From a virus, in the IMG/VR virus record IMGVR_UViG_3300008261_000101, positions 1 to 53,861 of that record: 53,861 nt of DNA; one strand, given 5' to 3'. Position numbers and translations under genes: made by a program. The notes under the pieces were generated by a model. The model had not been told where the DNA came from. It saw nothing but the letters and a program-made list of their open reading frames with translations, and made no database searches. This document shows, in pieces, positions 11,021 to 52,238 of this stretch; the stretch's first letter is position 1, and each line of letters starts with the position of its first letter.

Positions 11021-11051
11021 AGTATTGCCTCCTTGTTATTGCCTATGCATT

Positions 11052-11088: not shown

Positions 11089-11093
11089 AATAT

Positions 11094-11101: not shown

Positions 11102-11132
11102 TTGTCAAGTATTTTTTTTAATATTATTAAGG

Positions 11133-13416: not shown

Positions 13417-14998
13417 AATAATTTGAACTTACAAAGATTGGCATGGGCAGTTCATATTCTTCATCCGATTGCATTTGACTAAAGGTGTTGTAAACATTTG
13501 GATCCCAGTCCTTCATAACGCTTAGTATTCTTAATGCAAGTAACATAGAACTTATTAAGTCGTCACTTTGACCAGATTTTGCTTGAAAACTGCTGCCCGT
13601 TGCAATAAAAGTTTTTAATTCGCTTATAAACGGTTTACTTTTTATAATAAGCTGATCGTTTTCAATCATTGTTTTTAATCTCGAACATGCAGTAATTTTA
13701 CTACTGTGTGTTGTATTAAATCCTTTTCTGAATTTTCTTACATGCCCTTTTCGCATGGGTTCACTGGTAAACAGTCCTGGAATGTTTTCTTCGCCGAAGT
13801 CATTTATAACAAGTAATGCAGCTTCGCCTAAGCCGTTGTTCTCTACGCTCCAGTATATATTGCTGCCGCCGCTTTTGCACTCATCAGATATGTATTTGCA
13901 AACATCTTTTAATACTCTAATTTGTCCAGGTATACTAGTTGTATTGTGTTGCCATTCGCCGACTTGTTCGTATGTGGGAATTTCTACAATTTGTATTGCA
14001 GCGTTGTCGCCTCCGGTGCCCATGCTAGGATCAAGTGCAACAACATAACTGTACTTTGCATTTGGCTTTTTATACCATCGAGTTTGCCCCATATTTAATA
14101 CAGGAGAGTTTCCTTCCATTACAGCTAACTTAATGGAATTTATTAACGTTTCGTCGTAAACTAAGAATTCGCATCCATATTCACGACGGAACTTTTCTTC
14201 GCCGATACGACCAATCTCTTCAGATTTCCATTCTTCGTCTCTGTCAGGATGTTCCCACCAATCGGCACGAAATGCATGAAAGCCATTAATACCTACATCT
14301 TGTTCGTTTCCGTATTCATCAAACTTGTTTTCTGCTTGTTTCCAAATAGTAGCAAATGTATCTTCGTCTGAGTTTGGTGTGCTAGTAATAACAGCACGAC
14401 CACCGGTTGCTAGAGTAGGAGAGATTGAAGTCCAAAATTCTTCTGCAATGTTAGGCTGCACGAAGGCAAACTCGTCGCAGTATAATAATGAAATACTCAT
14501 ACCACGTCCTGTGTTTCCGGTAGTTGTTTGACTTACAATACGAGATCCGTTTTCAAATTCAATAGATCCTTTATTGTAGCTTGTAACACCTGCTCTAATG
14601 TAATCTGGGCAAGTTTCGTATACATATCGAACTCGTGCCATAATTTCTTGTGCACCGGTATATTTGTGTGCAGCAATAAGAATTGTTTGGTCTGGATGAA
14701 ACATTGCATACCAGCAAAGATAAATTGCTGCACAGGTTGTTTTGCCTGTTTGTCGAGGCATCATGTTGATATTAAAACGGTAGTTGTGATAACTGTGCAA
14801 TAACCTTAATTGATATTCATATGGATCAAATAACAATTTTCCTTTTACAGGATGCTGTATGTGTGCAAAATGTTTTGCAAAGTACAGATATCCATCATTA
14901 GGATCCATACACTGTAACAAATCTTGAATCTGCTCTTCTGAGTATGTTTCTTTTTGATTTGCTTTTTTAGTTATAACGCCGTCTAAACTTTTTCCCAT
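13415..14998 (-). CDS. gp17: gp17 terminase large subunit (527 aa)
   Basis: The motor ATPase and headful nuclease that packages DNA into the prohead. Walker A PRQTGKTT is at residues 81-88, Walker B LLYCDE at 171-176, and the coupling motif TSTPNS near 206. The RNase H-like nuclease begins with VALDPSMGTGGDNAA (D323) and continues with SVENNGLGEAAL and QSDDLISSMLLAL, supplying the other acidic residues. Length is a little below that of T4 gp17 (610 aa). There is no Shine-Dalgarno: the ATG lies exactly five bases after ACTAAATA, predicting a leaderless late mRNA. A UUCG-loop terminator just upstream separates it from the preceding transcript. Confidence 0.97.
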   Translation of the reverse strand: MGKSLDGVITKKANQKETYSEEQIQDLLQCMDPNDGYLYFAKHFAHIQHPVKGKLLFDPYEYQLRLLHSYHNYRFNINMMPRQTGKTTCAAIYLCWYAMFHPDQTILIAAHKYTGAQEIMARVRYVYETCPDYIRAGVTSYNKGSIEFENGSRIVSQTTTGNTGRGMSISLLYCDEFAFVQPNIAEEFWTSISPTLATGGRAVITSTPNSDEDTFATIWKQAENKFDEYGNEQDVGINGFHAFRADWWEHPDRDEEWKSEEIGRIGEEKFRREYGCEFLVYDETLINSIKLAVMEGNSPVLNMGQTRWYKKPNAKYSYVVALDPSMGTGGDNAAIQIVEIPTYEQVGEWQHNTTSIPGQIRVLKDVCKYISDECKSGGSNIYWSVENNGLGEAALLVINDFGEENIPGLFTSEPMRKGHVRKFRKGFNTTHSSKITACSRLKTMIENDQLIIKSKPFISELKTFIATGSSFQAKSGQSDDLISSMLLALRILSVMKDWDPNVYNTFSQMQSDEEYELPMPIFVSSNY

Positions 14999-15053: not shown

Positions 15054-15662
15054 TTACTTTTTAAAAGGCGTTTTTTTCTTATCAGCAACTGCTTTTTTCA
15101 TTGGCTCTTTTTTGTTGCCATCCTTGTCCATATCAAGGAAGTCTGGTTTTGCAGCTTCTTTGACTTTCTTATCAGCAACTGCTTTTTTCATTGGCTCTTT
15201 TTTGTTGCCATCTTTGTCCATGTCTAGGAAGTCTGGTTTTGCTTTCTTTTCGTTCAATGCACGATAAAGACGATCTTTGATACTTTCGATTGCCATTGGG
15301 TTATCGCCTGCTGCTGCCGGTTTATACATTTTCTTTTCGCGATTTAGTCCGCCTGATATGGTTTTAGTCATATATTCGTGATCTTGGTATTCTTCGTCTG
15401 GTTCGTTTGCCCAGTCTTCAAATGCTTCTTCTTCGGCTTCCATGTTGTCCATAGACATTGCCATAGTAGGCGATCCTGATTCAATGTTTGCTAAAGCTCT
15501 CATAATATCTGCCATGCTGTTTCCAGTAACACTAATGTTTACATTAGATGCTGATTCTTGCGGCATCATTCCACATTCGTTTACTGCTGATTCTGTTATG
15601 ACTGATTTCTTTTCAACGGTATCAAAGCCTTTTAAAATTTTTAGCATATCTAAGTCTGACAT
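15054..15662 (-). CDS. Conserved hypothetical protein with duplicated DxDxDG segment (202 aa)
   Basis: Function unknown. The middle is Met- and acid-rich (residues about 60-95); the C-terminus carries two near-identical copies of KPDFLDMDKDGNKKEPMKKA, each holding a DMDKDG loop like the first half of an EF-hand or dockerin calcium loop, followed by Lys-rich stretches. Similar proteins, as I recall, lie in the packaging/head region of marine T4-like phages. A Shine-Dalgarno GGGAG precedes the ATG, and the gene starts two bases after the stop of the 181-aa gene. The acidic core and basic tail suggest a flexible particle protein, but this is inference. Confidence 0.7.
   Translation of the reverse strand: MSDLDMLKILKGFDTVEKKSVITESAVNECGMMPQESASNVNISVTGNSMADIMRALANIESGSPTMAMSMDNMEAEEEAFEDWANEPDEEYQDHEYMTKTISGGLNREKKMYKPAAAGDNPMAIESIKDRLYRALNEKKAKPDFLDMDKDGNKKEPMKKAVADKKVKEAAKPDFLDMDKDGNKKEPMKKAVADKKKTPFKK
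15076..15242 (-). repeat. Direct repeat, two 77-bp copies with 90-bp period
   Basis: Copies at 15076-15152 and 15166-15242 differ at only a few bases and encode the duplicated DMDKDG segments at the C-terminus of the 202-aa protein. The near-identity at DNA level indicates recent duplication. Confidence 0.9.
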
Positions 15663-28096: not shown

Positions 28097-28531
28097 ATGA
28101 AAAGTATTGTTTGTTCCGGTGCACTGTTTTATACATTATCCACTAGTAGATTTTTATTACTTCATAGAACGCAATCTAAACAAAACAATGTTTGGGGTTT
28201 AGTTGGCGGTACAAATGAAGAACGTGAAACTCCGTGGGAAGGGTTAAAACGAGAAATAACTGAAGAAATAGGGACTATGCCTGATATTAAAAAAGTTATT
28301 CCGTTGGAAACATTTATAAGTAACGATGAACATTTTAAATTTCACACATACTTGTGTGTAATTGACCATGAATTTGTTCCTACTTTAAACAATGAGCATG
28401 ACGGATATGCCTGGGTTAAGTTTGGAAGTTGGCCAAAACCCTTGCATACTGGGTTGGCCAACACTCTTAGACGTAAAGCAAATCAGCAAAAATTAGACAC
28501 AGTTTTTAAGATTGTTGATTTAATTTCGTAA
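28097..28531 (+). CDS. Nudix hydrolase (144 aa)
   Basis: A full Nudix box G-x5-E-x7-REITEEIG occupies residues 38-59 (G38, E44, R52, E53, E56, E57). Nudix enzymes hydrolyse nucleoside diphosphate-linked compounds; the VWGLVGG lead-in and length near 150 aa resemble GDP-mannose or (d)NTP-type members, but the substrate cannot be told. I chose the ATG at 28097: an upstream in-frame ATG at 28064 lies inside gp15. No Shine-Dalgarno. The 3' end overlaps the convergent 1127-aa gene by 26 bp. It lies beside glycosyltransferases, so nucleotide-sugar turnover is one possibility. Confidence 0.85.
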   Translation: MKSIVCSGALFYTLSTSRFLLLHRTQSKQNNVWGLVGGTNEERETPWEGLKREITEEIGTMPDIKKVIPLETFISNDEHFKFHTYLCVIDHEFVPTLNNEHDGYAWVKFGSWPKPLHTGLANTLRRKANQQKLDTVFKIVDLIS

Positions 28532-31500
28532 ACTGTTCTTTTAGCCAATCAAAGTCGTTGATTTTTCTTAACGCTTCGATGTTGCCTATATTATCTATAC
28601 CGTACTGCTTACCTGCATTTGCACCAGCAATACAATAATCGCCAAATTCTTTATCCTTGCCACGAGTACACCAGACGTTTAATCTAAAATCAGTTTCCTC
28701 GTCTCGCTGGCCGTCAATGGTTTTTGATGACAATTTTACACATTCTCTAAACGCACTTCTCCAAGTACTAAACGGATCGGTATTAAATTTAGTAATATTG
28801 GAAACACGGTTTATAGACTTAAACAATGTAGATATACTTGTAGTCATGTCAGGCTTGGTTGTGTCCATGGTTAGTGTTAACTCTTTAGGTAACAACTTTA
28901 CTGCACCATATCCGTATACTAAGTTATTAATAGGGTTCAGTGATTTCCAAACGTGAACTGTTTTTTTACTATCAGGGTCGTATGTTGGAATATAGTAATC
29001 AAAATTAAAATTATCAATAATCTCGGCATCAGCATCAACAACCCAGATCATTTCAGACGAACAAAGTCGTGCTGCTTCAATATGTGCTTGGTGTATGCCT
29101 TGTACTCCGTGTACACGCTTTGCGTTAGGAAATCTTTCTTTTAATTTACTATAATTTGTATCTGCATGTTCTTCGTCTTTGCTTATAAACACAATGTCAT
29201 AAGTTTTTGGATTGCTTGCTACAATGTCGTATTCTTTCTTTTCTAAATAAAATCTATGTGTTACTTCGTGTTCAATTGCTGGAAGTTTTTTACTCATTAA
29301 AGCTACGCCATCGTATGCACTGCCGTTTTTAAAGATGTGATGTATACTTCTTTCAAACCATTGATTGTGTGGAAAATACAAATCAAATTTAAAATTATTT
29401 GCAATGTCAACATCATCAGGAATTGACCAAAACATTTCTGTTTTTGAGTTTTGCACTGCATTTAAATAGTCGGCGTAATTCTTTATAATAAACTTATCAT
29501 AAACAACTGGACCACTTGCAACTATATCCCATTCTTTTCGTTTTGCAATTAATCTGTGTTCTACTTCTTTTTCAGTTAACACTATTTTTTTAGTACACAA
29601 AAATAATCCATCAAACGAAATTTCGTCACCGCATTTATGTTTAAACACGTGATTTATGTTTCTATCAAATGTCTCGTGATGACTAAAGTACATGTTTAAA
29701 TTAAACGTATCAGAGATTTTTATATTATGTGTGCCCATCCAAAACATGTCGGTAGCTGATTTTTCAAGAGCATCTAAATATTGATCATACGTGTCGATAA
29801 AAAAGAAATCATACGGCTTAGGATAAACGCCCCAGAACAATTCTGTTTTTGATTTTTCTAATGCATTTAAATAATCGTTGTAGTTGTTAACAGTAAACTT
29901 TTCATATTGACCGTTTGTGGATACAACAGTATCCCACTCTTTTGCGTTAACAATAAATCTGTGTTCTATTTCTTTTTCGGTAATAGGTTTATGTTTACTT
30001 AATAAGAACACGCCGTTAAATTTTATTTCGTTGTTGTCTTTGTGCGCAAATGCATGATTTTGTTTTCTATCATATTCATTGTCATGAGTAAAATAGATTT
30101 TTTCAAGTTCGTTTTCGTTTACTTTAATGTTGTGTGATAACGCCCAAAACATTTCTGTTTTGGTATTATCTAATGCATTGATATAATCGTCAAATGTTTC
30201 TATATAAAACTTATCATATATAACTGGACTGCTTGCAACTATGTCCCACTCTTTTGCGTTAACAATAAATCTGTGTTCTATTTCTTTTTCGGTAACAGTC
30301 TTGTGTTTCGAAATTAAAAATAAACCATTTCGATAAGTTTTACCTTCAACTTGATGAATGAAGCTATGGTGTGTTTTCCTGTCGTATTCATTTTCATGTA
30401 AAAAATACAAATCAGGAATTGTAGGAGATATGTTGCTACTACTCATCCAGAACATTTCAGGTCCATTAGAATTTAGTGCAGTTAAGTAATCGTTGTAACT
30501 GTCAATGTTGTATACAGGATACTTGACTGGACCAGAAACAATAACATTCCATTCTTTTCGTTCAACAGGATGTCTGTATTCAACTTCTTTTTCGTTTAGT
30601 GCTTTACATGTACTGCATAGTATTAAACCATTTTTATATAACTCATTGTTTACTTTATGTAAAAATACGTGTGTTTGTTCGCGATCAACTCGATTGTGCC
30701 AATCTATGTAAAAATTGTTTATATAATCATGATCTACAGAAATATTATTTGTAGATACCCAAAATAGTTCTGTTGTAGTTTTGTCTAGTGCATTTAAATA
30801 ATCATTATAATTTTCTACGTTGAATATATCATAGGGTTTCGGATGTGATGCAACTACATCCCATTCTTTTTTTTCTATATAAAACCGATGTTCAAATTCT
30901 TTTCTAGTTACTGGACTTCTTTTAGAAAAAAGTACTATTCCATCATACGAGTCTTTGTTTTTAAAAACGTGTGTAATATCTCTATCAAACATGTTATAAA
31001 AATCAAAATTAATTGAAAAGTCAAAATCTTTTTCAACTATTACGTCTTTTGGAACATGCCAAAACAATTCTGTTTTTGAAGTTTTTAATGCTACTTCATA
31101 GTCTTCATACGTGTCAAAAGAAAATATTTCGTAATTTCTAGGTTTACTTGCTACTTGTTTTATTTGTTTCTTTTGTGCTAAGAATCGATATTCCAATTCT
31201 TTATCTGTTGGAATATAGCTTTTAGGCATTAACACAATACCATCAAACTTATCATTTTTTCCATTACCGAATAAATGGGGATATTTAAAACTCCACTCGT
31301 CTGGTTCGTAATCAAACTCAAATGTTTTATCTACAATTAAATCGTCGTACACAATCCAAAACATATCTGTTACTGCTACTCTCATAGCATCTTGATAGGT
31401 TTTAACTGCAATAGCTTCGGGAAATCTTTTTCTTAAATCTTCCCATGTACCGGTTTCTTTGTCACCTAGGAAGAAAATATCAAAGTTATGTTTTCCTCTA

Positions 31501-31889
31501 TACACATCGTAGTCACCGCAAATGTTAGTTTCGGTTACAAGATGTGTTTCATCATTTACGATAGTTGGTACAAGTCTAACTTTTTCCCAACTACTTACAC
31601 GCTTGCTTTCTTTAAAAACATATGGAAAACAAATAGTACATCCATAGTCATCACGTTTGGGTTTGTAGTGCCACGGAAACGATCTATATACTTCGATATC
31701 TTTATCAACAACCCATACATAATCTGACTTATCTTTGAACTTTTCGAGTTGTTTTAAATCGTAGTTCTTTGCGTCTTCTACATATAGGATTGGAAATCTT
31801 TGCAAGATATGATTTTTTAAAACATCTTGTGCATTGTAAGTCTTTTTACTAAATTTTTTAAAACGTTCAACTGTATTCATTTGTCTCAT
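28506..31889 (-). CDS. Tandem-repeat GT-A-like glycosyltransferase array (1127 aa)
   Basis: About ten units of roughly 100 residues, each with a Y-x-D-Y-x-x-A-L helix, an M/L-F-W-x4-x-I strand, a D-R-x-x-x-H-x-F segment and T-E-K-E-x-E-H-R-F, then K-E-W-D-I-V-A-S. The F-W strands lie near residues 60, 178, 275, 377, 481, 581, 685, 716, 823 and 951. Only the last is a clear GT-A DxD site (MIWVVDADAEI); the first (YVWVVDKDIEV) is close; the middle ones are degenerate (e.g. MFWALSHNI). Unit seven is truncated to about 32 residues. A C-terminal segment, STWRSAFRECVKLSS, is typical of phage glycosyltransferase-like proteins. The start could be 31889 or 31880; neither has a good Shine-Dalgarno, and both lie in the upstream gene's end. 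Confidence 0.7.
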   Translation of the reverse strand: MRQMNTVERFKKFSKKTYNAQDVLKNHILQRFPILYVEDAKNYDLKQLEKFKDKSDYVWVVDKDIEVYRSFPWHYKPKRDDYGCTICFPYVFKESKRVSSWEKVRLVPTIVNDETHLVTETNICGDYDVYRGKHNFDIFFLGDKETGTWEDLRKRFPEAIAVKTYQDAMRVAVTDMFWIVYDDLIVDKTFEFDYEPDEWSFKYPHLFGNGKNDKFDGIVLMPKSYIPTDKELEYRFLAQKKQIKQVASKPRNYEIFSFDTYEDYEVALKTSKTELFWHVPKDVIVEKDFDFSINFDFYNMFDRDITHVFKNKDSYDGIVLFSKRSPVTRKEFEHRFYIEKKEWDVVASHPKPYDIFNVENYNDYLNALDKTTTELFWVSTNNISVDHDYINNFYIDWHNRVDREQTHVFLHKVNNELYKNGLILCSTCKALNEKEVEYRHPVERKEWNVIVSGPVKYPVYNIDSYNDYLTALNSNGPEMFWMSSSNISPTIPDLYFLHENEYDRKTHHSFIHQVEGKTYRNGLFLISKHKTVTEKEIEHRFIVNAKEWDIVASSPVIYDKFYIETFDDYINALDNTKTEMFWALSHNIKVNENELEKIYFTHDNEYDRKQNHAFAHKDNNEIKFNGVFLLSKHKPITEKEIEHRFIVNAKEWDTVVSTNGQYEKFTVNNYNDYLNALEKSKTELFWGVYPKPYDFFFIDTYDQYLDALEKSATDMFWMGTHNIKISDTFNLNMYFSHHETFDRNINHVFKHKCGDEISFDGLFLCTKKIVLTEKEVEHRLIAKRKEWDIVASGPVVYDKFIIKNYADYLNAVQNSKTEMFWSIPDDVDIANNFKFDLYFPHNQWFERSIHHIFKNGSAYDGVALMSKKLPAIEHEVTHRFYLEKKEYDIVASNPKTYDIVFISKDEEHADTNYSKLKERFPNAKRVHGVQGIHQAHIEAARLCSSEMIWVVDADAEIIDNFNFDYYIPTYDPDSKKTVHVWKSLNPINNLVYGYGAVKLLPKELTLTMDTTKPDMTTSISTLFKSINRVSNITKFNTDPFSTWRSAFRECVKLSSKTIDGQRDEETDFRLNVWCTRGKDKEFGDYCIAGANAGKQYGIDNIGNIEALRKINDFDWLKEQFTKLNQQS

Positions 31890-32478
31890 CTAAAATAAAT
31901 GCTTTTATTCCGTAGTGTGCTACTTGTTTACTCAAGTCAACATCAATAAAAGTTTTGAATCCATACTCGTTTGCTTGTCTGCAAAAATAAATATCTTCAC
32001 CTACAAAGTTGTCTTCTGCTTCGTTATAAATGTGAGTAAACCACGGCTTAGGTAACGTTTCAAAAACTTTTCGACTTACTAACATGCACCCCATTCCAAC
32101 TGCCCAAACTTTATGCAAGCCTGTTTTGGCATCTAGCCTAGCATCTAGATCGTGCTGATTGATAAATGCAACACTTCTTAATGGTTTAACTCTTGTGCTA
32201 TAAGTTGCAGCAACAATATCTTTATTGTGTGCGAGCAACTGATCAACTGTGTCTTTTGGAAAGTGCATGTCACTGTCGAGCCAAAGTAAATAGTCCGATC
32301 CACTTTGTAATGCACGATTTGCTAGTATTTGTCGTAGGTCTGGAATAACAGTTCCTAATGCAGAAAATATTTCAAAATCTACACCGGACTTTGCCAAGTG
32401 CGAAGTTAAATTAGCAAGAGACTTGGCAAATCCTAGGTGTACATAGTTGTGTGAAGGAATGCATATTGCAATTTTCAT
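31867..32478 (-). CDS. GT2-like glycosyltransferase (203 aa)
   Basis: N-terminal strand KIAICIPSHNYVH and the DxD strand YLLWLDSDMHFP (D68/D70) are those of GT-A family-2-type enzymes. VWAVGMGCMLVSRKVF and GEDIYFCRQANEYGF provide the acceptor-side Gly-rich strand and the E-D catalytic-type motif. It is shorter than most full GT2 enzymes. The ATG overlaps the stop of the 133-aa gene (TAATG) and its end overlaps the 1127-aa gene, so it forms an operon with that repeat protein and may share its acceptor. Confidence 0.8.
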   Translation of the reverse strand: MKIAICIPSHNYVHLGFAKSLANLTSHLAKSGVDFEIFSALGTVIPDLRQILANRALQSGSDYLLWLDSDMHFPKDTVDQLLAHNKDIVAATYSTRVKPLRSVAFINQHDLDARLDAKTGLHKVWAVGMGCMLVSRKVFETLPKPWFTHIYNEAEDNFVGEDIYFCRQANEYGFKTFIDVDLSKQVAHYGIKAFILDETNEYS

Positions 32479-42100: not shown

Positions 42101-44536
42101 GATGTTAGTATTTGGAATATCTGCATGATCAGTTGTAATTATACTGCTTACTGTAAATGTGTTTCTTAAGGTGCTTGAACCGACAGCTACCAATTCAACG
42201 CTAACAATAAGCTCTCGTTCAACTGGTTTCCAACTATACACATATGCACTATTATTGCCTGCTCCTGTTGTAGCAGCAATAGCTCTACCCGGTACAAATT
42301 CATAACTCTCTGCACCAGATTCTAGTATAAGTTTTTGATATGTCTGGTGACTCGAAGTAATGTCGTTAACAAAAAATTCTCTTGTGTTTGCCAAGAATTC
42401 GTGCGAACCTGTACTAGTTGATGTAATGTCAACGTTGAAATCTCCACTTTCATCAAATGTTAATGAAAATTCGTTTTCATTTATGACTTTAACATAATAT
42501 GTTTGTTCAGCATCTAATCCGCCTACTGGTGTATTTCCTACTGGATCGTAAATTACAGACTGTCCGTTAGTTAATCCGTGAGCTGTAGCACTAAAAATAT
42601 TTGTAGTAACATTTACGTCAGTGGATGCATCAAATGCAATTTCTACAGTAGCAACAGACTTATAATCATTGGTTATGTCCCCTTCGGAAGTAACGTCAAC
42701 TGCATCAGGTATAGAATTTGGATCGGATATAGCATCCTTAATTAAATCAAATTTCTCGTCAACAAATGCTCTTACAGTTGAATCTAAACTTGCTAAAACT
42801 GTTGCTGTGTAAACGCTTGCTTGTTCTAATGCTGCAATTGTTTGATCTTCTTGACCGCTTATAGTAGAGTTAGAACTATCTGCTAATCTTCCTGTATAAT
42901 AAGACAGTGCTGCCTGGCGAGTCAGTGTGTTTCCAGTACTCCATGTATCCCTTGCAACCGCATCTAATATAATTAATAATTCTGCATAAAAGGTTGCAGC
43001 ATTGTAAATGTATCCATCCCAAATACTTCCAGGAGTTGCACCGGCAATTTGAGCATCTATCCAGTCAATGGTATCTTGTGCAATGTACCCAGCATTTGAT
43101 TCTATCAAGTCATACGCAATTTTGTATTCTGGATTTCTAAATCTAATAACGAATTCGTTTACTGGTTCAGTTCTCCCGATACCAACAACTGTTAATGTTT
43201 GTGCACCAGATGACACACCAGTGGCTACAACAATCGATCTGTCAAATTCAAATGTCTTAGGTGAGAACCCTGATGATCTAAGGGCATAAAGACCAAAGTT
43301 AGTAGCAGAGTTAGTAATAGATACGTATCCGCCAGACTGCGCATAAATTCCGTTTAATAAGAAAATTTGGAAACACGAAACTATCTGTGCATAAGCATCG
43401 TTGGTTAAGCGCCAACCTGTGCCGCCGAAACTAATATGAGTAAATGCGTTTGCAACCATTGACTTACCTTGTTCCGGGGTCGGTCCTGCTACAGGATTTT
43501 CTGCTTCAATTTGTCTTGGTGGAGCGTTTGGAGTAGAAACTTTACTACCATCAATTTTAGCACCATTACCTCCTAAGAACGAAATAATAGAACAGTTTTG
43601 TATGTATGGCGACGATGTAATACTTGGACGTGTGGTCGGTAAGTTTGTGTACCCCACACGACTTGTTGTAGCATCGTCTGGATCGTCAAACGAAACTGCA
43701 TAGTCCCAAGTAAACTGAGGAACAAAGTTTACATCCACTTTATCTCTAAAAGTAAATTCACCAAAATAACATGCATTACGAACTCTTAACATATCAAGAT
43801 TTGCATTGGCAGGACGAATAAGACACCCTCTTAACCCGTCGCCCTTGATGACAACATTGTCAGGAACAATAATTGGATTCTGTTCGGTGTAATCCCCAAC
43901 AGCAACTTTGATGTTTATTCTGCGACCATTAACTGTACCATTTGAATTGTATACCAATCCTGATGCAATTTGACATGCTTTTTTAACAGTTCTAACAGGT
44001 AAGTTTAATCCGTCATTGGTGTCGTCACCCTTTTCTGCGCTTACATAAATCACGTTTCCGCCAAATGTATCGGCACTAGCAAAAAATAATTCTCCTACTC
44101 CGTTAACTCTTAGTAAATTTCCGTCAATTCCGTCATTAGGAGGTAAAACTAATGTATATCCAGCATCTAATGTGTTAGGTGCTTTAATCGAAACACCATT
44201 GTTTCCTGATGCGATTAACTCGTTAAACGTTAAGGTTGATGCATCTTCGATCTGTGTATTTTCTTGTAGTGAAATATAGGAAGCATTTACAGTTATCTTC
44301 TGAGAGCCATCAATCGTAATTGTCACTTCACCTGCAGAATCGCCTGGATCGCTAACTAAAATTTGACTGTTGTTTTCAAAAATTCGTTGTGTAAGATCTT
44401 GGATTGTGTTATCATCTCTTAATAAAAACACTTTACCGTCGGCTGTGTTAATAGCTAATTCGCCTGATTCTAGTTGTGAAATTGTAGGTTTCTTGCCAGC
44501 GACCGCACTACGCTTGTGGCGTATCTTTGTAGACAT
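33155..44536 (-). CDS. Giant tail-fibre/spike protein with C-terminal peptidase S74 chaperone (3793 aa)
   Basis: The N-terminal block KRSAVAGKKPTISQLESGEL, continuing AINTADGKVFL, is usual for marine phage fibres. Residues about 165-460 form a parallel beta-helix-like region; about 480-640 hold one helical LILDAVARD repeat. The middle is Thr/Ser/Asn-rich beta sequence with four TGA-[LV]-[VI]-[VI]-x-GG-x-G modules. Residues about 2850-2990 are YadA-head-like repeats (NVAVGYQAL, NVAIGSNAG). The last ~105 residues are a peptidase S74 domain: FSDVRVKDNI, GVIAQEV, VNYGAFAGAFIEA, then a coiled-coil helix. S74 domains help trimerise the fibre and cut themselves off at the Ser near their start. AGGAG precedes the ATG; a GATAAATA box is at 44610. 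Confidence 0.9.
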   Translation of the reverse strand: MSTKIRHKRSAVAGKKPTISQLESGELAINTADGKVFLLRDDNTIQDLTQRIFENNSQILVSDPGDSAGEVTITIDGSQKITVNASYISLQENTQIEDASTLTFNELIASGNNGVSIKAPNTLDAGYTLVLPPNDGIDGNLLRVNGVGELFFASADTFGGNVIYVSAEKGDDTNDGLNLPVRTVKKACQIASGLVYNSNGTVNGRRINIKVAVGDYTEQNPIIVPDNVVIKGDGLRGCLIRPANANLDMLRVRNACYFGEFTFRDKVDVNFVPQFTWDYAVSFDDPDDATTSRVGYTNLPTTRPSITSSPYIQNCSIISFLGGNGAKIDGSKVSTPNAPPRQIEAENPVAGPTPEQGKSMVANAFTHISFGGTGWRLTNDAYAQIVSCFQIFLLNGIYAQSGGYVSITNSATNFGLYALRSSGFSPKTFEFDRSIVVATGVSSGAQTLTVVGIGRTEPVNEFVIRFRNPEYKIAYDLIESNAGYIAQDTIDWIDAQIAGATPGSIWDGYIYNAATFYAELLIILDAVARDTWSTGNTLTRQAALSYYTGRLADSSNSTISGQEDQTIAALEQASVYTATVLASLDSTVRAFVDEKFDLIKDAISDPNSIPDAVDVTSEGDITNDYKSVATVEIAFDASTDVNVTTNIFSATAHGLTNGQSVIYDPVGNTPVGGLDAEQTYYVKVINENEFSLTFDESGDFNVDITSTSTGSHEFLANTREFFVNDITSSHQTYQKLILESGAESYEFVPGRAIAATTGAGNNSAYVYSWKPVERELIVSVELVAVGSSTLRNTFTVSSIITTDHADIPNTNIGINEVSNYAGLGTATFTIQSTVVGTSLTNLANLPEKQCWFHRPSIVNSSSHTWEYSGSGVDYNALPQNGGRTREEYEQYEELPGRVYTSGTNELGDFKVGTFITAYNRTGNITFRNKVQVDELDALRLTLSDIAIEEISTNVNLGDDELGGSSNSRLSTQLAIRSFLSNRLGGFIDKAVSTAAVPGAIVQLNTNGQLNPELIPATRQFTSTTTQGYLSRLLQVDEIPAVDLKAGDIATEEYEQVELTLPSGITVNDGDEISQPGIAGAVGYAKGNYGASLNLLVASVEGEWDSTDDSTGDPWDTGVSAPNLYVNNVDSGIKPSSKGTSSAIIDNFFLKSSNSSQYLILSNDDDYNFTSAAITFVSRSSNVATITTLTNHNLRVGNSVRVDASDHLYDENGIVLSIPTNTTFTIANTGANESIKAVTGYAYTLVTSADGNAQGAVTETRYGVCTNVDNTNFTPGFDYAPATGTYVWEMIPLTSVTGVGTGALADLTVTDACIVDVDIRRGGTGYAVGDLLSVNPNFDGVGLGHDFEIEITAIEKRAYVNIIGGELFVASTSSVDFVEDNDAPLTKQIIDLEDSISQNFLAGDVGAGGNVDYVNYRITITNHGYSNGDPVSYNTLGNVAIGGMINGEVYYAKSITANTIELYEDFSLVNKIEFLSTPANNNHNLTRYVVNIADNSITVVNHGFATGDAIKISIENDGSSVSALPDIASTEIVDGSRFFIGSVTTNSFTLHELRSDALASINGLVVGAKNITSTGVGHAIVILQNVQVNGVVNTSSRLKANWNSLAVTNIDASNIISGIVSPTRLAGSGTANSDTVLYGDSSYRVVVQNLIEANTTDNPITLTGSNISGEYYGDVSIGIANVDYDPGELYSTLGTARFLQSQFDVDTGASGQVFIKDGVVDAGTLDSLDSSYFLDPSNLTSNVPVNKGGTNLSAYSQGDIIYAQSTSTLNTLNIGRANNFLKSNGTTPEWSTALDLAEGLDVGSARLSSTSTGIGLVYNDNVTTLELGSAAETVKIGKSTATRNITSFIDNYDATSSTTVTVNLESFTAATDGITGNGDKEVPMASTSGILAGMLVTGSASIPANTTVSGVTTDYVYLSAETTGTISSSTTLTFTYTPFTLGIRAGDTINIASSTVSNLDGQWPVLGATFNATSFTIKTNANVTVSSSSPIAGTLTKDNTMLIRNRNVIFGSAEASSSTANATLKGESGIGTNIAGGAFTIQAGLGTGNATGGNFVVKTGEVGSSSAIEQTSTTRLTIDTSGLATFTGDVKVDDALTVDGNVTFNSTTGSTGYTSGALVVDGGVGIAENLYVNGTVNVTEANLGRIDFSPTAYSSRPSYQEGRLYYDSDFESLVLFSNNSNFDITLGEREFIRCRNSSGATINKGQPVYVTGVYIAGDAVFGRYPTVALADASDLNKIEVIGLAGHNIANGAEGYVIVSGYIDGIDTSNLTSGQKIHLGFDAPGTLVQTAPDYPNFPVDIGICLTSNASTGSIYIELRSHTVEKFRVTEGAYFDADVTVAGDLIVLGSQSSVKLNNLEVDSSFIYLNSGDTIGNDGTTFTGTGLDDATLVGHYQGTTTQTFYVRIDSVGGGTGGVDTFEWSLDNFSTTEATDIDVDTDPVALADGISVVWVSTTGHTLNDIWSGSASPVNVDVGVTGNRNTGTSGVGYTHLGFFFDVTDQKFKFFDEYDPAITGNINVADASFSLGTVVADAFEGNLTATSINVNGTATIGTLDVSGLGDIGGDFSVNTNKFTVTASSGNTSVAGTLGVTGESTLASATISDLTNNRIVIAGTGGIVEDDANFRFDGTNFDIGASGSEKFRVVVASGNTSVAGTLTVTGQTDLNGDINLGNATSDTITFVGRMDSNLEPSTNDARDLGTSSLAWKDLYLSESVNFKGATTENEIVFPTNLVDGLSITDGSNDFIVFTSTTGSNAIALKPDVNIDATTASSSTTTGALVVDGGVGIAGNVHSGGTFTGNGSGLTTLNASNISSGTISDSYLPTSQAGKTFTSDITVNSHKVGRGGGNSATNLAIAGGQAISTGTDNLVVGVGAMGAVVTGTDNVALGNTALALVTSSTHNTAIGNDALAQAAANAGYNVAVGAQSMQNTTGTVSDTATNNVAVGYQALAITTGKQNVAIGSNAGDSIALGSNNIVIGYNADASTSTTSNEITLGNGSITNFRIPGVTLTASTTTLTFGGTSGFSGVGTNLTALNATELTSGTVAGARLGGNQTMAGVKTFSDTTASSSTITGAVIIGGGLGVAGNIHLGGTITGNGSGLTTLNASNLSSGTVDGARLGGTQTMAGAKTFSDTTASSSHTTGAVIIGGGLGVAGNVYSNGIFNGNGSGLTTLNASQLTSGTVPSDRLTGTYAISVSGNAATATKWATARTITLGGDLSGSVSIDGSAAVTLTATIAADSVALGTDTTGNYVATVAAGTPGAETTSSGLTISATAGEGTAATIAHADTSTLTGAQGSAGIAAITLDGFGHVTAVTTATYLTSQSSDFGTVTVTDTDSGYTWAETGSAVADTTGDTLTLVSGSGINIDVAATSDAIRITNTDLGSSQNIFKNITLEQSDGTAIDTVVADSNNDTLYIRAGAVDSTNGIDLVADTVADRITISHSNTSGQNSLSNTGRTYIQSVTLDTYGHVTGLTTATETVVDTNTTYTAGTGLTLSGTTFNANVNATTQTVASNAVSATASRTYAVQVDGSDNLVVNVPWSDTDTNTDTLQSIATDSTNATRYITFVANTTGAQTGLVNTNFSINPSTQTLILSGANNATAGSSQLYLNGASGNRIDWNVNGVDLPAFTTRSAGTKLLLYPAIGAAAVDYAIGIGSSTLWHSVPTASATTYFRWYGGTTQAAVLTGDGTFTATGDVCAFSDVRVKDNIEVIADPLTKILSIRGVTFTRTDKEDTERRHMGVIAQEVEKYFPEVVHEGEDGIKSVNYGAFAGAFIEAFKEQQRQIDELRSMLQKVLDK
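33156..33470 (-). other. Peptidase S74 intramolecular chaperone domain
   Basis: Encodes the last ~105 residues of the fibre. FSDVRVKDNI supplies the expected Ser-Asp at the self-cleavage point; GVIAQEVEKYFPEVV and a C-terminal helix (EQQRQIDELRSML) follow. Confidence 0.85.
35034..35447 (-). repeat. Two 207-bp tandem repeats in the fibre gene
   Basis: Units at 35034-35240 and 35241-35447 encode 69-residue repeats of NGSGLTTLNAS, SGTV, GGTQTMAG and TGAVIIGGGLGVAGN segments. A diverged partial copy lies near 36125-36240. Fibre repeats of this type set the length of the shaft. Confidence 0.75.
35570..35990 (-). repeat. YadA-head-like repeat block in the fibre
   Basis: Encodes repeats of the form N-x-A-x-G-x-x-A/N-x-G-x-x-N-V-A-I-G, as in trimeric autotransporter adhesin heads. 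It probably forms a trimeric beta-roll contacting the host surface. Confidence 0.7.
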
Positions 44537-44639: not shown

Positions 44640-47600
44640 TTAGAATGTACCACCGTCTATTGTATCAGTCCAGACCGGAGTAGAATCAATGTTACTTGTG
44701 ACAGTTAGTATTTGATATGAAGTAGTAATGTCGCTTGCACCAGCAGCGGCAGTTACTTGTATCGGATTAGCAGTATCGCCATATAGTATTCCGTTTTCAG
44801 TAAATGTACTAGCACCTGTACCGCCGTATTGTACTGCTAAGTCATTATTAGTTAGTATTAATGATCCGTTAACAGTTAAATCTTCGTCAACTGTTAAGTC
44901 TTCGTTAACTGTTACACTTTGATCAAATGTAGTTAGTCCGCCGGTTTTACCTATATTAATTACAGTTGCATTTCCAAATGCATTAATTGTAGTTGGCGTT
45001 ACATTTAGTAAATTAAATGTACCAGCACTAGTTGTAATATCGCCGCCGTTTACAGCTAAGTCGCCAGTTATAGTTGCAACAGTTGAGCCTAGTTTAAACT
45101 TTTCTGTTAACGTTCCGTTTGTCATTGTTTTAAATGACATCTCAAAATATTCAGCCAAGTTAGTTACATTTGTTACAACTACATCTAAAATGCCGCCTAT
45201 TGTGAATATACTGGTGTCAGTTTCTAATTCAAACTTTAGTCCAGTACCGCTGTTTACAGTAGGCGTGCCAGACACACTATGATGTGCAAGTATAATTGGA
45301 TATACAATTGCATCGGCACTACTGTCTGGAGCATTTGATATGAATTTAATTTCCTCAGGAGATTCAATTGTGCTAGCTTTGATGATAATCTTGTCACTTG
45401 CATAATTGGTTAGCTGTAGTACTCCACTAGTGTTACCGCCAATGTATTGATTAACGTGTAGTTCTTTACCGATGCCAACTCCGCCAGTAACAGTTAGTGC
45501 ACCAGTATTATAAGCCGAACTTGCTGTAGTATTTTCTATTCTTACATCAACAGTATCGTCAATTCTTAAACGTGCTGTACTTAAATTCATACGCTCTATA
45601 CCATCGGTATAGAACATCAATTCGTTTTCGTTTGCAGCCGGAGAACTTTCAGCAATTATGTATGTATTGCCGTCGACATCTCGCACGCCGCCGAGACTAT
45701 TCCACGCAATACCGTCGTATCCTTCAAATTGTCCTACGTTGGTATTGAAACGAACTTGACCAGTAACAGAAGTCGGTCTTTCGGCTGTTGTACCAACTGG
45801 TAGTTGAATGCTAGCTACACTATCAAATATTGTTAGTTCGTTATTAACTGTTAACGTACCAGTTGCTGCGCCTATGTTTAAAGTAGTTGCTGCACCAAAT
45901 GCATTGACAGTAGTAGCAGTTGTATTTAATATGTTAAATGTACCAGCAGTTGTAGTAATGTCGCCACCGTTTACAGATAAGTCTCCGGTTACAGTTGCAT
46001 CTTGTACCACTGACAAGTTTGCCCCTACATTTAAATTCTTTTCAATACCTACTCCGCCCTGAACAATTACTGCACCGGTGTCTTTATCAGAACTATCAGT
46101 TTCGTTAAGTACTATTATATTAGGTACAGTGCCAAACTTGATCGATTCACTACTGTTAGTTGTATCAATTGCTACATAAGAATTAGTTGATTCTTTAATT
46201 TCAAATGCAACTGCAATGTTATCAGGAATGTTAAATTCTGCATCACCGGTAACAACCAGTGAGTCTACTGCGGCATTACCTAGGTCTATACTACCGTTAA
46301 TTGTTAAGTCGCCGTTAACACTTAAATTACCGCCAATTCCGACACCACCGGTAACAACCAATGCACCAGTTGAGTAAGTTGAAGAATTTGTTGTATTAAG
46401 TATATTGACAATAGGAGTTTCACCGAACGTAACATTTTCGGTACCGTTAACTGTGTCAATTGTAAAATAGTTAAATGATCCTTGATAGATACTAAACACG
46501 TCGGATGTATTGTCAGGAACACTGACATTTGCAATTCCTGTAATAGTTACGTCATCTTGAAATAAAGAAGTTCCTATTACTTCAAGGGTGTTATTAACAG
46601 TTGTTGTACCTATTAATGCACCGATATTAATGTCAGTAGCACCGCCGAACGCATTAACAGTTTGTGCGTTGTCGTTAATCAGGTTAAACGTTACTGCGGT
46701 ACTAGAAAGGTCTCCACCGTTAACTTGGATGTCAGTTTCAAATATTACATCATCTTCGACTGTGCCGCCTGTAATTTTATTCAAGTATCTATTTTCAACA
46801 TAGGAAATTACAGCAGTTTGTGTAGGAACAGTATAACTATCGGGTATACCCAAGCTCGATGTTAAGTCACCGTTTTCGCTTACTTCTCTTAATTCAACGC
46901 CAACTGGTATACCATCTCTTCTAAATGGTCCAATTGACGTAATACCACTTAAACTAATTTCGTTTGCATTAAGCGTAATTGCACCTGTTAGTGCGTTAAC
47001 TCTAAAGAAGTTACCAACTTTAAAGTTACCAATTTGATCGACTACACCTCCGGCAAACACTTTACCGTTGTTAGTTTCAACAAATTCATTTGCTGCTATA
47101 GGTACGCCACCGAAGAACGGTAACGCATTATATGTAATGCCTGCACCTACATATTCAAACGCATGTCCGGAAGTAGATATAGTACTCACGTTTTGTAAAC
47201 TTGATAGTGTGTTATCTAGTACAAATGTAACACCAGGGAACAATGATATAGTTGCAGTACCACCATATTCTTGATTTAACATTATAATTGTTTCATCAAC
47301 AATATCATCTGTGTTGGTTAAGATCAATTCTCGTTTTGCATTAATAGTAACATCAGCTAGTGTGCTGTAGCTGTGATTTACTTCTGTAGGTAATGACGTA
47401 TTTCCATTTTTAATAACTTCTGCTATTTTTTCTACTAGAATCCATATGTAGTTTGCTGAAATTGAACTCCCTGCAGAACTACCGATTACTTGAGTTTCTG
47501 TAACATCTTCGCTTGGAGTAATTGTATTGTTTAATGCTATTTCTTTTAATACAGTTGCAAGATGTTTATAAGAAAATTCCGAAACACCTGACTGATCGGC

Positions 47601-50600
47601 GGTGCCAACTATTGCATTTCCTAATACTGCACCATTGTAGTACGCTTCGGCAGCTCGTCGAGTTTGTTTATTGCCGCCGTAGGTCATGTCGTAAACCGCA
47701 GCATCGATTATATAGCTTACATCACGTTGACATTTTTGTACATTATAACTAAAGCCAATCAAGTTGTTAGTGATAAAATCAATTGTACCTTGCTGTATTA
47801 CTGAACTTTGAGCTAAAAGGTTAGTAGCTGCATTATCAACACTACTTGTATTCCAAGAGTAATCAGGATCAACTTCTTGAGGTGTCGAAACTAGCCCGTC
47901 ATTTATTGCATCTATAACAACATCAAACAACGTATTTGATGTATCGCTATGTGTTGATAACCCAAACCCTGGAGTTAATACTTGAGATTCAGTATTTCCT
48001 GGAGTTGGCGTTACAGCAATTCCTTCGATTACATCGGCTGCTACACCTTTTAAATGCTCATATGCAGCAGAAATTTCTTCTTCTTGTGTGGGTATCTGAA
48101 TAGTACCGTAGTTATAATATGCTCTAGCAGCAACTAAAATAGCTCTGTTACCGCTATATAATAAATCATGTGTCACTGCATCTATTAGTAATCCGGTGTC
48201 TCGTTCGAGAATAAGTTCGTCGTATGTAAGACCGTCTAGAGTGGAATTAATGTAAGAAATAACACCCGACTGAAGTGTTGATTTTTGTGTTTGTAACGAT
48301 ATTCTTGCATTTGCATATTCAGAAGATACCCAGCTAAAGTCTGGTAAAACTTGAGCAGGTAGTGTATCGATATCTTCGATTACATTTGCAAAATCTTCAG
48401 TTAGTTCAACTACTCTGTCTACCTCTGTACTACTTGCTGCTATGCTGCCTAAATCTTGTAGTTCACTATTTCCTGCTTGTGGAGTTACAGGTATACCTTG
48501 AATAATATCTCCTAGTATGTTTGTTAAATAATTAAACGCTGCAACCGTTTCTGCTTGTTCAGCAGAAACAACACTTGTTGTTCCATTCCAATACGACTGT
48601 GCTGCAATCCTTGTTGCATAATTGCCTCCATACATTATGTCGTGGCTTAACGCATCTACAAATAATTTTACGTTCATATTAAAATTAGTAGTGTTGAAAG
48701 TCAACAACGGATATGTGTTTTGTACATATTCTACTAGATCTGCACCTATAAAATCTCTGTTATTTTGCAGTTGTTCTTTTGCATTGATTTGATCTGTTGG
48801 TACGCCGGATTCGTCCCATATTAAATGATCTGCTGCTAATGTTGTGCCTTCGGTTCCATTAACAATAATATCTATTATTTCGTCAAATCCTGCATTTGAT
48901 CTTAATAATGCATTAGCTGAACTTGCAAGTAAAGTTCCTACTAACGATTTTAAATGTGTAATAGCTGAAACTGTCTCAACAACATCACCATCAATCTTTG
49001 GCTGTGCAGTCGATATTTGATATGACAACCCAGCAGCAACTGAGTTATAGTTTGTTCCTAGTGCAACATCAAGACTTACTGCATCTATTATAAGACCAAA
49101 GTTAAGTGAATATTGTTCACTATCGTATATAAAATAGTTGTCATTGATCCATGCTATAGTTTCTGCAATCAAGAAATCTCGGTTATCTTGTAATTGTCTT
49201 GACGCATCTCTTAGTTCTGTACTAGCACTAGGAGGATAGTTAAATGTTTTTCCTTCGCTTGGAAGATCTTCGTACTCGATAACACTTAACAAATCGTCAA
49301 ATCTATCTCCGACTGCGGTCGATACAACAGAACTTGATATTGTTGCAGCCTGAGCTAAACGCTTGGTTTCTCTTAATGCTAAAATAGTAGCAGGCAATTG
49401 ATTAGCGTCTACTACTGAAGCGGTTGCTCGTTTATAAGCTAGTCCGGCAGTTATGCTATTATAATTTGTATTTAATCTTACGTCTCGAGCAACTGCATCT
49501 AGAATTAATGCTACATCTCGTTTGCACTTTGTTCTGTCGTATGTAAAATCTGGATAATTGTCAATTATAAAGTCAGAAATTTCAGTTACTGCGGTAGACT
49601 TATTTGCAAAAATTTGTCTTGATGCATTTTGTATTTGTGAAGTTGCCCAAGTTATTTCTGGATAACTTGCTGTAGGTAATCCGCTTATAGTAGAGTTATC
49701 AATAACATCGATAAAGATTTGTACCAAATTAAATATTTCGTCAACTTCTGATCCTGTAGCACTATCGTTACTAGTATCTTGAGTCAGTGGGTTTGCTGGA
49801 GTTTTTTCAATTAAGTTGCCTAAAATGATTTGTCCTACAACATACTGTAAATGTTGGTATGCTTCAACTGTTGGTTCAATTTCATTTGCGTTTACTGGTT
49901 GAATACCGGTTTCTATAAAGTATGCATTAGATGCGTTTCTTGTCGCAGTGTTGCCTTTGTAAAGTATGTCATAAGACAATGCATCAATAATATAACCTAC
50001 ATCTCTATAAAATTTATCGCTGTCGTATGATAATGTTGGATGATTGGCTGTAGTCCATTCTAAAATTTCTTCTTGTATAAATTCTCTATTTGCTCGTAGA
50101 TGATTTTTAGCATTTATTCTACTAGTTAATCCACTGGTAGGATTTGGATATTGTATATCATTTGCACTTGAGCTATCGCCGGCACCAATTAATTCGATTA
50201 TTTCGTTAAAAGCAGTATTGCTTCTAGTATTTGCAGTAGGGCTTGCAACAACTGCACTATATCCGGCAACAATTGATTTTAATTCGGTAAATGCAGCTAA
50301 TGTTTGAGTAATTTGTCTTGCTTTAATTTCTGAAGAGTAACTTCTTTGATATGTTAATCCAGTTGTTACAGCATTATAGTTTGTTCCTAACGCTACATCA
50401 TATGCAACACTTTCCATTGCTAGTCTTACATCTCGATCAAAGTTATCTTGATTGTAAGATAGGTATGTAAATTGTTCTGCAATATATTTTGTTATTTCGT
50501 CAATAATAAACTCTCTGTTGGCAAGAATATTGTCTTTAGATGATATTGTGCCACTTGACAATGTCGGTAAATCGTTGTATACTACATCTGGTGCAGCACT

Positions 50601-52238
50601 GCTATCACCTCTGTCTAACATATTAGTTACAATTGCAAAGCGTTCTATTATATCGTATCTAGCATCTAAGTTGCCAGCATCGCTGTCTGGTAGTAAATCA
50701 AGAATTAGGTCTCTTGCAGATTCAAGGCCGTATACAGTTGCTTCAAGTTGTTGTCTAATAACTTTTTGTGCTGCTACTCGTAAGTATGATCTACCGGCTG
50801 CTAATGATTGGTATGTTGTACCTAGTGCAACATCTCCCATAATAGCATCAACTATTCTAGCAACATCGCGTCTACAGATATTTTCATCGTAAATTAACGG
50901 TTGTTCAGTTATGTCGGTGCTTGTTATATAGTACTTTGTTACATCACCATCAAATGTAATGACCGATCCAACTTGGGGAATATCTCTTAAGCTATCAATT
51001 TCTACACTTATATTTCGCGTAAGATTTACATCTGCTTCAGCTTCGATTGTAAACGATCCTCCCACAAAAGTTATTTGTGGTACAAATGTATATCTTGATC
51101 CTGGATTGGTAACAATAATACCTGTTAGTTTTCCTGTTGTAACATCAATAATTGCTGTACCGGTTGCAGTTACTCCTCCCGGAGCAGTAGGTGGATCAAA
51201 CACTACAGCAGGAGCACTAATATAACCAGAACCCTGATTGGTAATTGTTACACTTCCTACTGTTGAATAATAATCTTGTGTGGGTCTTGCTGTTGTATAA
51301 GGAGTTTCGTAGACTCCGTCTGCAATAATAGCGTATGTACCAAAGTCAGAAACTGAGTTAGAGATTGATAGATAACCACCATTGGTTGTTAAAAATCCAG
51401 TACGGCAAAAAACAGTAAAACAGCTAACAATTTGTGTATAACCAAAATTAGTAATATGGAAACCGATGCCGCCTTGTGCAATCTGAGTAAATGCGTCGGC
51501 GACCATTGAACGAACCAACGACCTAGGATCGTATTCGTCCCCGTCAACTAATATACCGTTTCCGCCGCCGGTTTCGTTTACACGCTTTGCTAATGGTACC
51601 CTAACATCGTTTATAATAGGCCTTGCACCCGGAGTAACGCCTTCGATTTGTACAGTTTCAAAAGGTACAAATTCTGTGCCATCGTTTAACCATGGTCCGT
51701 TAATGTTTGAACAATTTTGCACGTAAGGCGATGTAGTAACTAATGCTCCAGATTTAATTTTTACACAAAACCCCGGATCAGCTAATCCCCTAAAAGTTAT
51801 TTGATATATGTAACAGGCGTTGTCTACATAAAATATGTCATCCTGATTATTGTTTGGCCAAACGTTTGTTGTACGTAAGCTATCTCCTCTAACAGTTTGA
51901 CGTACTTTTAATGTAATAGGATTATCTTCGTAGTAATCTCCTGGCGCAACTTGAATTATTGCTCCAACAGGGGCTGCTTCAACTGCGGCTTTTATTGTTT
52001 TTTTAGCCCTGTCAGAAGTTGGTCCTAATCCACTGTTATTATCATCTCCTTCGAGTGATACATAATAAACTAATGCATTTTCTTCAGCACCGGGAATATT
52101 TCCTGTAACAATTAAGTTTCCATTTATTGTTACATTACCACTTTTAGGTGTGAGGTTAATCTGTCCGTCACCGGTTATTACTAACTGACGATCTCCGACT
52201 TTCCTTTCATGCAGTATCTGTTGCTTTACATATTTCAT
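44640..52238 (-). CDS. Giant structural protein with beta-helix and eight helical repeats (2532 aa)
   Basis: After a short N-terminal region (GNVTINGNLIVTGN), residues about 55-330 form a beta-helix-like region paralogous to the one in the 3793-aa fibre (shared YVS.E.GDD, SPYVQNCS, MVADAFTQIAQGGIGF, QIVSCF, GGYLSISNS). Residues about 440-1600 hold eight repeats of 140-160 aa built round an R-D-V-x-x-I-I-D-A-x-x-x-D motif. The remainder is beta-rich with three TGA-L/V-V-V-x-GG-V-G-I modules. It lacks an S74 domain. It is probably a fibre, whisker or baseplate-attached spike that works with the S74 fibre. The start has only a weak AGAAG Shine-Dalgarno. Confidence 0.85.
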   Translation of the reverse strand: MKYVKQQILHERKVGDRQLVITGDGQINLTPKSGNVTINGNLIVTGNIPGAEENALVYYVSLEGDDNNSGLGPTSDRAKKTIKAAVEAAPVGAIIQVAPGDYYEDNPITLKVRQTVRGDSLRTTNVWPNNNQDDIFYVDNACYIYQITFRGLADPGFCVKIKSGALVTTSPYVQNCSNINGPWLNDGTEFVPFETVQIEGVTPGARPIINDVRVPLAKRVNETGGGNGILVDGDEYDPRSLVRSMVADAFTQIAQGGIGFHITNFGYTQIVSCFTVFCRTGFLTTNGGYLSISNSVSDFGTYAIIADGVYETPYTTARPTQDYYSTVGSVTITNQGSGYISAPAVVFDPPTAPGGVTATGTAIIDVTTGKLTGIIVTNPGSRYTFVPQITFVGGSFTIEAEADVNLTRNISVEIDSLRDIPQVGSVITFDGDVTKYYITSTDITEQPLIYDENICRRDVARIVDAIMGDVALGTTYQSLAAGRSYLRVAAQKVIRQQLEATVYGLESARDLILDLLPDSDAGNLDARYDIIERFAIVTNMLDRGDSSAAPDVVYNDLPTLSSGTISSKDNILANREFIIDEITKYIAEQFTYLSYNQDNFDRDVRLAMESVAYDVALGTNYNAVTTGLTYQRSYSSEIKARQITQTLAAFTELKSIVAGYSAVVASPTANTRSNTAFNEIIELIGAGDSSSANDIQYPNPTSGLTSRINAKNHLRANREFIQEEILEWTTANHPTLSYDSDKFYRDVGYIIDALSYDILYKGNTATRNASNAYFIETGIQPVNANEIEPTVEAYQHLQYVVGQIILGNLIEKTPANPLTQDTSNDSATGSEVDEIFNLVQIFIDVIDNSTISGLPTASYPEITWATSQIQNASRQIFANKSTAVTEISDFIIDNYPDFTYDRTKCKRDVALILDAVARDVRLNTNYNSITAGLAYKRATASVVDANQLPATILALRETKRLAQAATISSSVVSTAVGDRFDDLLSVIEYEDLPSEGKTFNYPPSASTELRDASRQLQDNRDFLIAETIAWINDNYFIYDSEQYSLNFGLIIDAVSLDVALGTNYNSVAAGLSYQISTAQPKIDGDVVETVSAITHLKSLVGTLLASSANALLRSNAGFDEIIDIIVNGTEGTTLAADHLIWDESGVPTDQINAKEQLQNNRDFIGADLVEYVQNTYPLLTFNTTNFNMNVKLFVDALSHDIMYGGNYATRIAAQSYWNGTTSVVSAEQAETVAAFNYLTNILGDIIQGIPVTPQAGNSELQDLGSIAASSTEVDRVVELTEDFANVIEDIDTLPAQVLPDFSWVSSEYANARISLQTQKSTLQSGVISYINSTLDGLTYDELILERDTGLLIDAVTHDLLYSGNRAILVAARAYYNYGTIQIPTQEEEISAAYEHLKGVAADVIEGIAVTPTPGNTESQVLTPGFGLSTHSDTSNTLFDVVIDAINDGLVSTPQEVDPDYSWNTSSVDNAATNLLAQSSVIQQGTIDFITNNLIGFSYNVQKCQRDVSYIIDAAVYDMTYGGNKQTRRAAEAYYNGAVLGNAIVGTADQSGVSEFSYKHLATVLKEIALNNTITPSEDVTETQVIGSSAGSSISANYIWILVEKIAEVIKNGNTSLPTEVNHSYSTLADVTINAKRELILTNTDDIVDETIIMLNQEYGGTATISLFPGVTFVLDNTLSSLQNVSTISTSGHAFEYVGAGITYNALPFFGGVPIAANEFVETNNGKVFAGGVVDQIGNFKVGNFFRVNALTGAITLNANEISLSGITSIGPFRRDGIPVGVELREVSENGDLTSSLGIPDSYTVPTQTAVISYVENRYLNKITGGTVEDDVIFETDIQVNGGDLSSTAVTFNLINDNAQTVNAFGGATDINIGALIGTTTVNNTLEVIGTSLFQDDVTITGIANVSVPDNTSDVFSIYQGSFNYFTIDTVNGTENVTFGETPIVNILNTTNSSTYSTGALVVTGGVGIGGNLSVNGDLTINGSIDLGNAAVDSLVVTGDAEFNIPDNIAVAFEIKESTNSYVAIDTTNSSESIKFGTVPNIIVLNETDSSDKDTGAVIVQGGVGIEKNLNVGANLSVVQDATVTGDLSVNGGDITTTAGTFNILNTTATTVNAFGAATTLNIGAATGTLTVNNELTIFDSVASIQLPVGTTAERPTSVTGQVRFNTNVGQFEGYDGIAWNSLGGVRDVDGNTYIIAESSPAANENELMFYTDGIERMNLSTARLRIDDTVDVRIENTTASSAYNTGALTVTGGVGIGKELHVNQYIGGNTSGVLQLTNYASDKIIIKASTIESPEEIKFISNAPDSSADAIVYPIILAHHSVSGTPTVNSGTGLKFELETDTSIFTIGGILDVVVTNVTNLAEYFEMSFKTMTNGTLTEKFKLGSTVATITGDLAVNGGDITTSAGTFNLLNVTPTTINAFGNATVINIGKTGGLTTFDQSVTVNEDLTVDEDLTVNGSLILTNNDLAVQYGGTGASTFTENGILYGDTANPIQVTAAAGASDITTSYQILTVTSNIDSTPVWTDTIDGGTF
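47680..50885 (-). repeat. Eight tandem helical repeats in the 2532-aa protein
   Basis: Core motifs lie near residues 463, 606, 749, 912, 1050, 1195, 1350 and 1510 (e.g. KRDVALILDAVARD, QRDVSYIIDAAVYD, YRDVGYIIDALSYD). Sub-types alternate between LGTNYNS-xx-AGL and YGGN-xx-TR-xx-A-xx-Y endings. Divergence at DNA level indicates old duplications. Confidence 0.8.

Follow-up and report, generated by a model that had tools for sequence, protein, structure and literature searches.

Recursive insertion of a domain into copies of itself has been described for Si3 of the cyanobacterial RNA polymerase, where it reaches six levels (PMC13114784), and this is the closest precedent that we have found for the phage protein described here. 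As in Si3, the copies of one domain family would be inserted in one another with branching nodes. Unlike Si3, which consists of β-rich hybrid motifs (PMC13114784), the phage domain is all-helical and globin-like and is arranged in A/B modules with a permuted half; the relatives have 3 to 8 modules, and up to 12 levels are implied in one of them (L152). Disulfides in a phage virion also have a precedent. The tail of phage Milano is reported to have a disulfide network that prevents its contraction (PMC10811340), unlike which the putative staples of the present protein would be intra-chain and lie within modules.

The phage domain resembles the phycobiliproteins (PF00502; phycoerythrin, phycocyanin and the bilin domain of ApcE) in its full-length fold match, in the succession of helices A/B and E to H, in having two subtypes at 1:1 and, for most relatives, apparently in a C-x-R-D motif at the start of helix E. 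It differs from them in that there are no separate subunits: the domains appear to be inserted in each other and belong to a virion structural protein. The N-terminal X/Y helices are apparently missing in the phage domains, and bilin attachment there is putative. Sequence-related repeats occur in proteins of the same kind, the T4-like cyanophage short tail fibre and tail fibre families (phrog_4527 and phrog_5342), whose annotations mention neither the fold nor the nesting. The virus itself lies outside the typical cyanophages, as its terminase large subunit (13415-14998, minus strand) is closest to that of Pseudomonas PA5oct-like jumbo phages (52%), though the fibre repeats match cyanophages. 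No description of a self-nesting phycobiliprotein-like phage tail domain was found in the open-access literature.

The repeat array and its fold

The window is a stretch of 53,861 nucleotides that comprises positions 1 to 53,861 of the IMG/VR virus record IMGVR_UViG_3300008261_000101. P0001, a tail-fibre-like open reading frame of 2532 residues with PHROG tail fiber matches (44640-52238, minus strand), carries eight diverged, all-helical repeats at residues 450-1660 (47259-50891, minus strand). A sequence-only reading had counted eight copies in P0001 and one in its 3793-residue neighbor, P0002. These counts were confirmed with a profile HMM trained solely on cyanophage repeats, without any sequence of the window. 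It finds the P0002 copy (E of 1e-7) and all eight copies of P0001, whose best-scoring pieces have E-values of 1e-3 to 4e-24; neither the reversed P0001 nor 200 shuffles scored better than 0.15. The span given in that reading, 47680-50885, does contain the array but leaves out most of copy 8, and its R-D-V-x-x-I-I-D-A motif marks real repeats, although copies 2, 5 and 6 have only a degenerate form of it.

The repeats are 18-36% identical to copy 2 and fall into two length classes within a range of 138-163 residues, A (138-145) and B (158-163). R1 (50457-50891), R2 (50028-50456), R4 (49128-49541) and R5 (48699-49127) are of type A, and R3 (49542-50027), R6 (48225-48698), R7 (47748-48224) and R8 (47259-47747) are of type B, all on the minus strand. 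A duplication period of three repeats, read from DNA repeats of about 1320 nucleotides in the window, found no support in the relatives. The array is directly followed by a conserved YNALP domain (GITYNALPFFGG; 46911-47204, minus strand). P0002 (33155-44536, minus strand) is a paralogue that ends in an S74 chaperone domain (PF13884, E of 4e-15) and has its single domain of this kind at 42653-43123 on the minus strand. A region in front of the repeats (residues 57-311 of P0001; 51306-52070, minus strand) is common to both proteins at 35% identity, as had been noticed earlier; it is probably the β-helix then proposed, a reading to which a weak DUF1565 match points (E of 0.003, below the cut-off).

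An AlphaFold2 model of R4-R7 (pLDDT of 87.5) is all helix apart from short hairpins, in agreement with the helical repeat proposed from the sequence and not with the β structure named there as the contrary outcome. Each repeat consists of an H part (helices E to H) followed by a T part (helices A/B), and one domain consists of T plus H. The T hairpin of R2 and the H part of R3 (49683-50147, minus strand) form one such contiguous domain, which was modeled alone with a pLDDT of 91.5 and a pTM of 0.87. Nearly all of its best 50 Foldseek matches in the PDB are phycobiliproteins or bilin-binding relatives, and a few others are globins. The phycobiliprotein matches have a probability of 1.00 and a TMq of 0.54-0.71, with modest E-values (5e-3 at best) and an rmsd of 4-7 Å. 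Phycoerythrin accounts for the sole high-probability matches of the R4-R7 model among the matches listed.

Searches with sequence profiles are consistent with this assignment. PF00502 (Phycobilisome) registers in 11 of 12 related phage records, in 5 of them above its curated cut-off, within very large repeat-bearing frames, and it is the best-matching Pfam family for a set of 45 repeats (4 members, best E of 4.7e-4). P0001 itself, searched as a whole protein, has no Pfam match, PF00502 included, and when the repeat profiles were run against PDB sequences, no hit was reliable and the sole phycobiliprotein match was at chance level. The P0001 repeats are phycobiliprotein-like domains of the globin fold, which the sequence-only reading had not recognized. 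In the fold matches T aligns ahead of H, so that the natural order of the domain is T then H. As the array of P0001 starts with H and ends with T, a module of it would hold one permuted domain.

Other repeats and genes were noted in the window. A protein of 1127 residues (28506-31889, minus strand) has internal repeats of its own of about 110 residues (...EKKEWDxVAS...YDxFxIxxYxDYLNALxxTxMFW...) and adjoins a glycosyltransferase-like gene (31867-32478). A sugar-modification-like cluster at 2329-8475 encodes glycosyltransferase-like proteins, a nucleotidyltransferase/cupin fusion and a methyltransferase-like protein. At 15075-15242, within a protein of 202 residues, a 90-bp tandem repeat (1.9 copies, 96%) appears to be a recent duplication of about 30 residues.

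Balanced pairing of the A and B repeats

A query of two repeats finds only the same virus in a second record, in which the gene is 100% identical; copy number was therefore studied in more distant relatives, and the conserved domain behind the array was used as the anchor with which orthologues of P0001 were fetched from IMG/VR. Relatives of P0002 and of the cyanophage proteins were fetched with the paralogous version of this domain, and an additional scan (A7) added few further loci. The array has 6, 8, 10, 12 or 16 copies in the relatives of P0001 and 1, 3 or 5 in those of P0002. The expansion and variable number proposed earlier are thus borne out, and a number constant in all relatives was not observed.

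The distance from H to T separates the subtypes, being 84-94 in A and 101-119 in B with a nearly empty gap between. The repeats were typed without supervision by competing profile HMMs, which converged with all margins above 40 bits, margins that are optimistic because the profiles were trained on those repeats themselves. The diverged copy 2 of many proteins is placed correctly by length and by profiles of the whole H part, but not by a two-way clustering of the first 46 residues. The typing is weak for the divergent clade L288-L305.

Among 58 relatives the count of A always equals that of B, and the order of the repeats is a balanced-bracket word. All 51 typed proteins are balanced Dyck words, in eight architectures: AABABB, AABAABBB (that of the window), AAABBABB, AAABBAABBB, AABAAABBBB, AABAAABABBBB, AAAABBBAABBB and one word of 16 copies. 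Seven further orthologues outside the training set also obey the rule, as do the P0002-type relatives, in which one domain has nothing (the window), AB (most relatives) or AABB (L201) between its T and its H. A tree of the flanking regions requires at least nine changes of architecture, and every observed state is balanced. Exactly one A-B pair interrupts repeat 2 near position 107 of the HMM in L093 and the L092 group. L109 and L152 have a double nesting, in which a further pair interrupts the A of the inserted pair. In L151, L158 and L121 about 190-310 residues of other sequence lie between or inside repeats near the center of the array. The word of the window reads (()(())) and pairs R1 with R8, R2 with R3, R4 with R7 and R5 with R6.

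In named T4-like cyanophages the repeat is found in the short tail fibre, tail fibre and gp7 baseplate genes. Their fibres show the nested order literally, as TTTTHHHH, with the words THTTHH, THTTTHHH, THTTTTHHHH (S-PM2) and TTHTTTTHHHHTHH (S-RSM4 and S-WAM2). Exact balance holds in 18 of 25 frames; the other 7 have one H in excess, which is probably a missed T hairpin or a split H. When proteins with depths of 2, 3 and 4 are compared, their outer T and H elements prove to be orthologous, with the extra elements in the center. Two of the proteins (L033 and L035), 92-100% identical at most flanking elements, differ by one central T-H domain, apparently a near-recent insertion. The S-PM2 record (NC_006820.1, locus 8557-13384) has 16 tRNA genes annotated within the short tail fibre gene under one locus tag, probably an error of annotation coordinates.

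The partners defined by the brackets coevolve, even when they are distant in sequence. In a sample of about 66 effective sequences, mean mutual information is 0.303 for bracket-matched A-B pairs compared to 0.248 (sd 0.005) for random consistent matchings; first-in-first-out pairing was rejected, as its value of 0.259 is near random. The contact band to be expected if T (T_A) packs antiparallel on the first helix of H (H_B) has a strength of 3.81 in adjacent bracket pairs and 2.99 in non-adjacent ones, whereas mis-pairings give 1.50 (sd 0.29, maximum 2.41 of 300) and sequence neighbors 1.29-1.63. The contact between T and H in the permuted domain (T_B on H_A) is weaker, with its best bands at 44-48 reaching up to 2.7.

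The cysteine at the start of helix E follows the same pairing. Both partners have it in 204 distinct bracket pairs, neither in 38 and only one in 5, so that 242 of 247 pairs are concordant (p of 1e-38, a value that ignores shared ancestry); sequence neighbors show no positive association. Most of the double losses go back to a single event at pair (2,3). From the patterns we read some five or six such losses as independent, among them two between partners that are not adjacent in sequence (pair 2,5 of L093 and pair 5,8 of L155). In the window the cysteine is kept in both R1 and R8, lost from both repeats of the pairs R2-R3 and R5-R6, and lost from R7 alone in the pair R4-R7. Coevolution and cysteine pairing together support the suggestion that the separated halves of a bracket pair fold together, and a disulfide between the two cysteines probably staples the module together.

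Probable nested insertion and the alternatives

By combining these observations, it is possible to describe how the array might be built, and we consider it likely that nested A-B modules, formed by recursive self-insertion, make up a stapled, branched side arm that serves as a scaffold. The domains would multiply by inserting into one loop of themselves, between the helix pair A/B (T) and helices E to H (H). For P0001 and its family, the unit of insertion would be an A-B pair, H_A-T_A-H_B-T_B, in which T_A and H_B form one domain in the normal order, and H_A and T_B form a second, circularly permuted domain wrapped around the first. Because the two ends of such a module lie together, it could drop into the loop of another module. 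The array of the window would then consist of four modules and eight domains with up to six levels of nesting; the same bracket model gives up to eight levels for the 12-copy type and up to twelve for the 16-copy protein. Nested modules would stack end to end, siblings within one loop would lead to branching, and a disulfide between the helix-E cysteines of the partners would staple each module. With its exit from the fibre and its return at the same point, the array would stand out as a branched side arm between the β-rich head and the YNALP domain, and its size would change in steps of about 300 residues while the flanking domains stay in place. Judged from its place in tail-fibre and baseplate proteins, it would most likely act there as a scaffold for adhesion, stable and tunable, or for reinforcement.

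The HTHTHT alternation of P0001 can also be read as consecutive T-H domains, each T packing on the following H in a linear rod of globin-like domains extended through duplications of blocks of two repeats. Such duplications would yield even copy numbers, and the A-to-A junction shows a weak trace of the contact band (1.63). They would, however, also make AA, BB and BA blocks and thus unbalanced words, none of which is seen. Coevolution and the loss of the cysteine track the bracket partners, not the neighbors, and the TTTTHHHH order of the cyanophages is incompatible with an ordinary tandem array, which we regard as unlikely.

The sequence-only reading had proposed that the helical array may be a passive spacer, a rod behind the head that sets length or flexibility, and the wide variation of copy number among close relatives would suit this. 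With matched A/B brackets and coevolving partners far apart in sequence, the array would start and end at one place, as a side arm and not a spacer, and the path from head to tip would stay the same length when modules are added. The same domain is also present in gp7-like proteins of the baseplate. The simple length-setting rod is not supported, and we think a spacer role quite improbable.

Possible bilin binding and implications

The C-x-R-D motif at the start of helix E, which we take to correspond to the Cys84/Arg86/Asp87 region of bilin binding, raises the possibility that the domains are relatives of biliproteins that bind a bilin or other cofactor and have kept the motif for chromophore attachment. 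It is conserved in most relatives (the cysteine in 84-98% and the aspartate in 93-99.6% of unique repeats), and cyanophages with the domain often have cpeT near the fibre gene. Against this, most proteins of the P0001 family and the divergent clade keep the cysteine, although psbA and cpeT are missing from the 17 virus contigs of these groups that were examined, partly fragments, and a bilin reductase is present in only one. Moreover, P-SSM2 has a reductase but no such domain, and the cysteine is lost in five of the eight copies of the window, mostly by partner, which fits a disulfide. Judged from these sequences, bilin binding is possible in the cyanophages and unlikely for the family of the window, and as an account of the domains in general it is very improbable. 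The one record with a bilin-reductase-like gene (G005, 330 kb; 269836-270384, PF05996, E of 3e-15) is from a P0001-family virus (L166) without psbA or cpeT.

The benefit of phage cpeT and bilin reductases in Prochlorococcus hosts, which do not have standard phycobilisomes, is unexplained (PMC2984593). That the nested cyanophage domains bind bilins, and that the phage cpeT and bilin reductases act to modify the phage's own tail fibres, is a most improbable conjecture.

If the nesting described above is correct, many marine T4-like phages would have a self-inserting domain related to phycobiliproteins in their tail-fibre and baseplate proteins, most of which carry no annotation beyond structural or tail fibre. 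The depth of nesting would equal or exceed that of the deepest case found in the literature, and the bracket grammar would predict contacts and disulfides from sequence alone. The natural series of arrays with 3, 4, 5, 6 and 8 modules would lend itself to studies of how nested chains fold, and modules whose ends meet would be useful in protein engineering.
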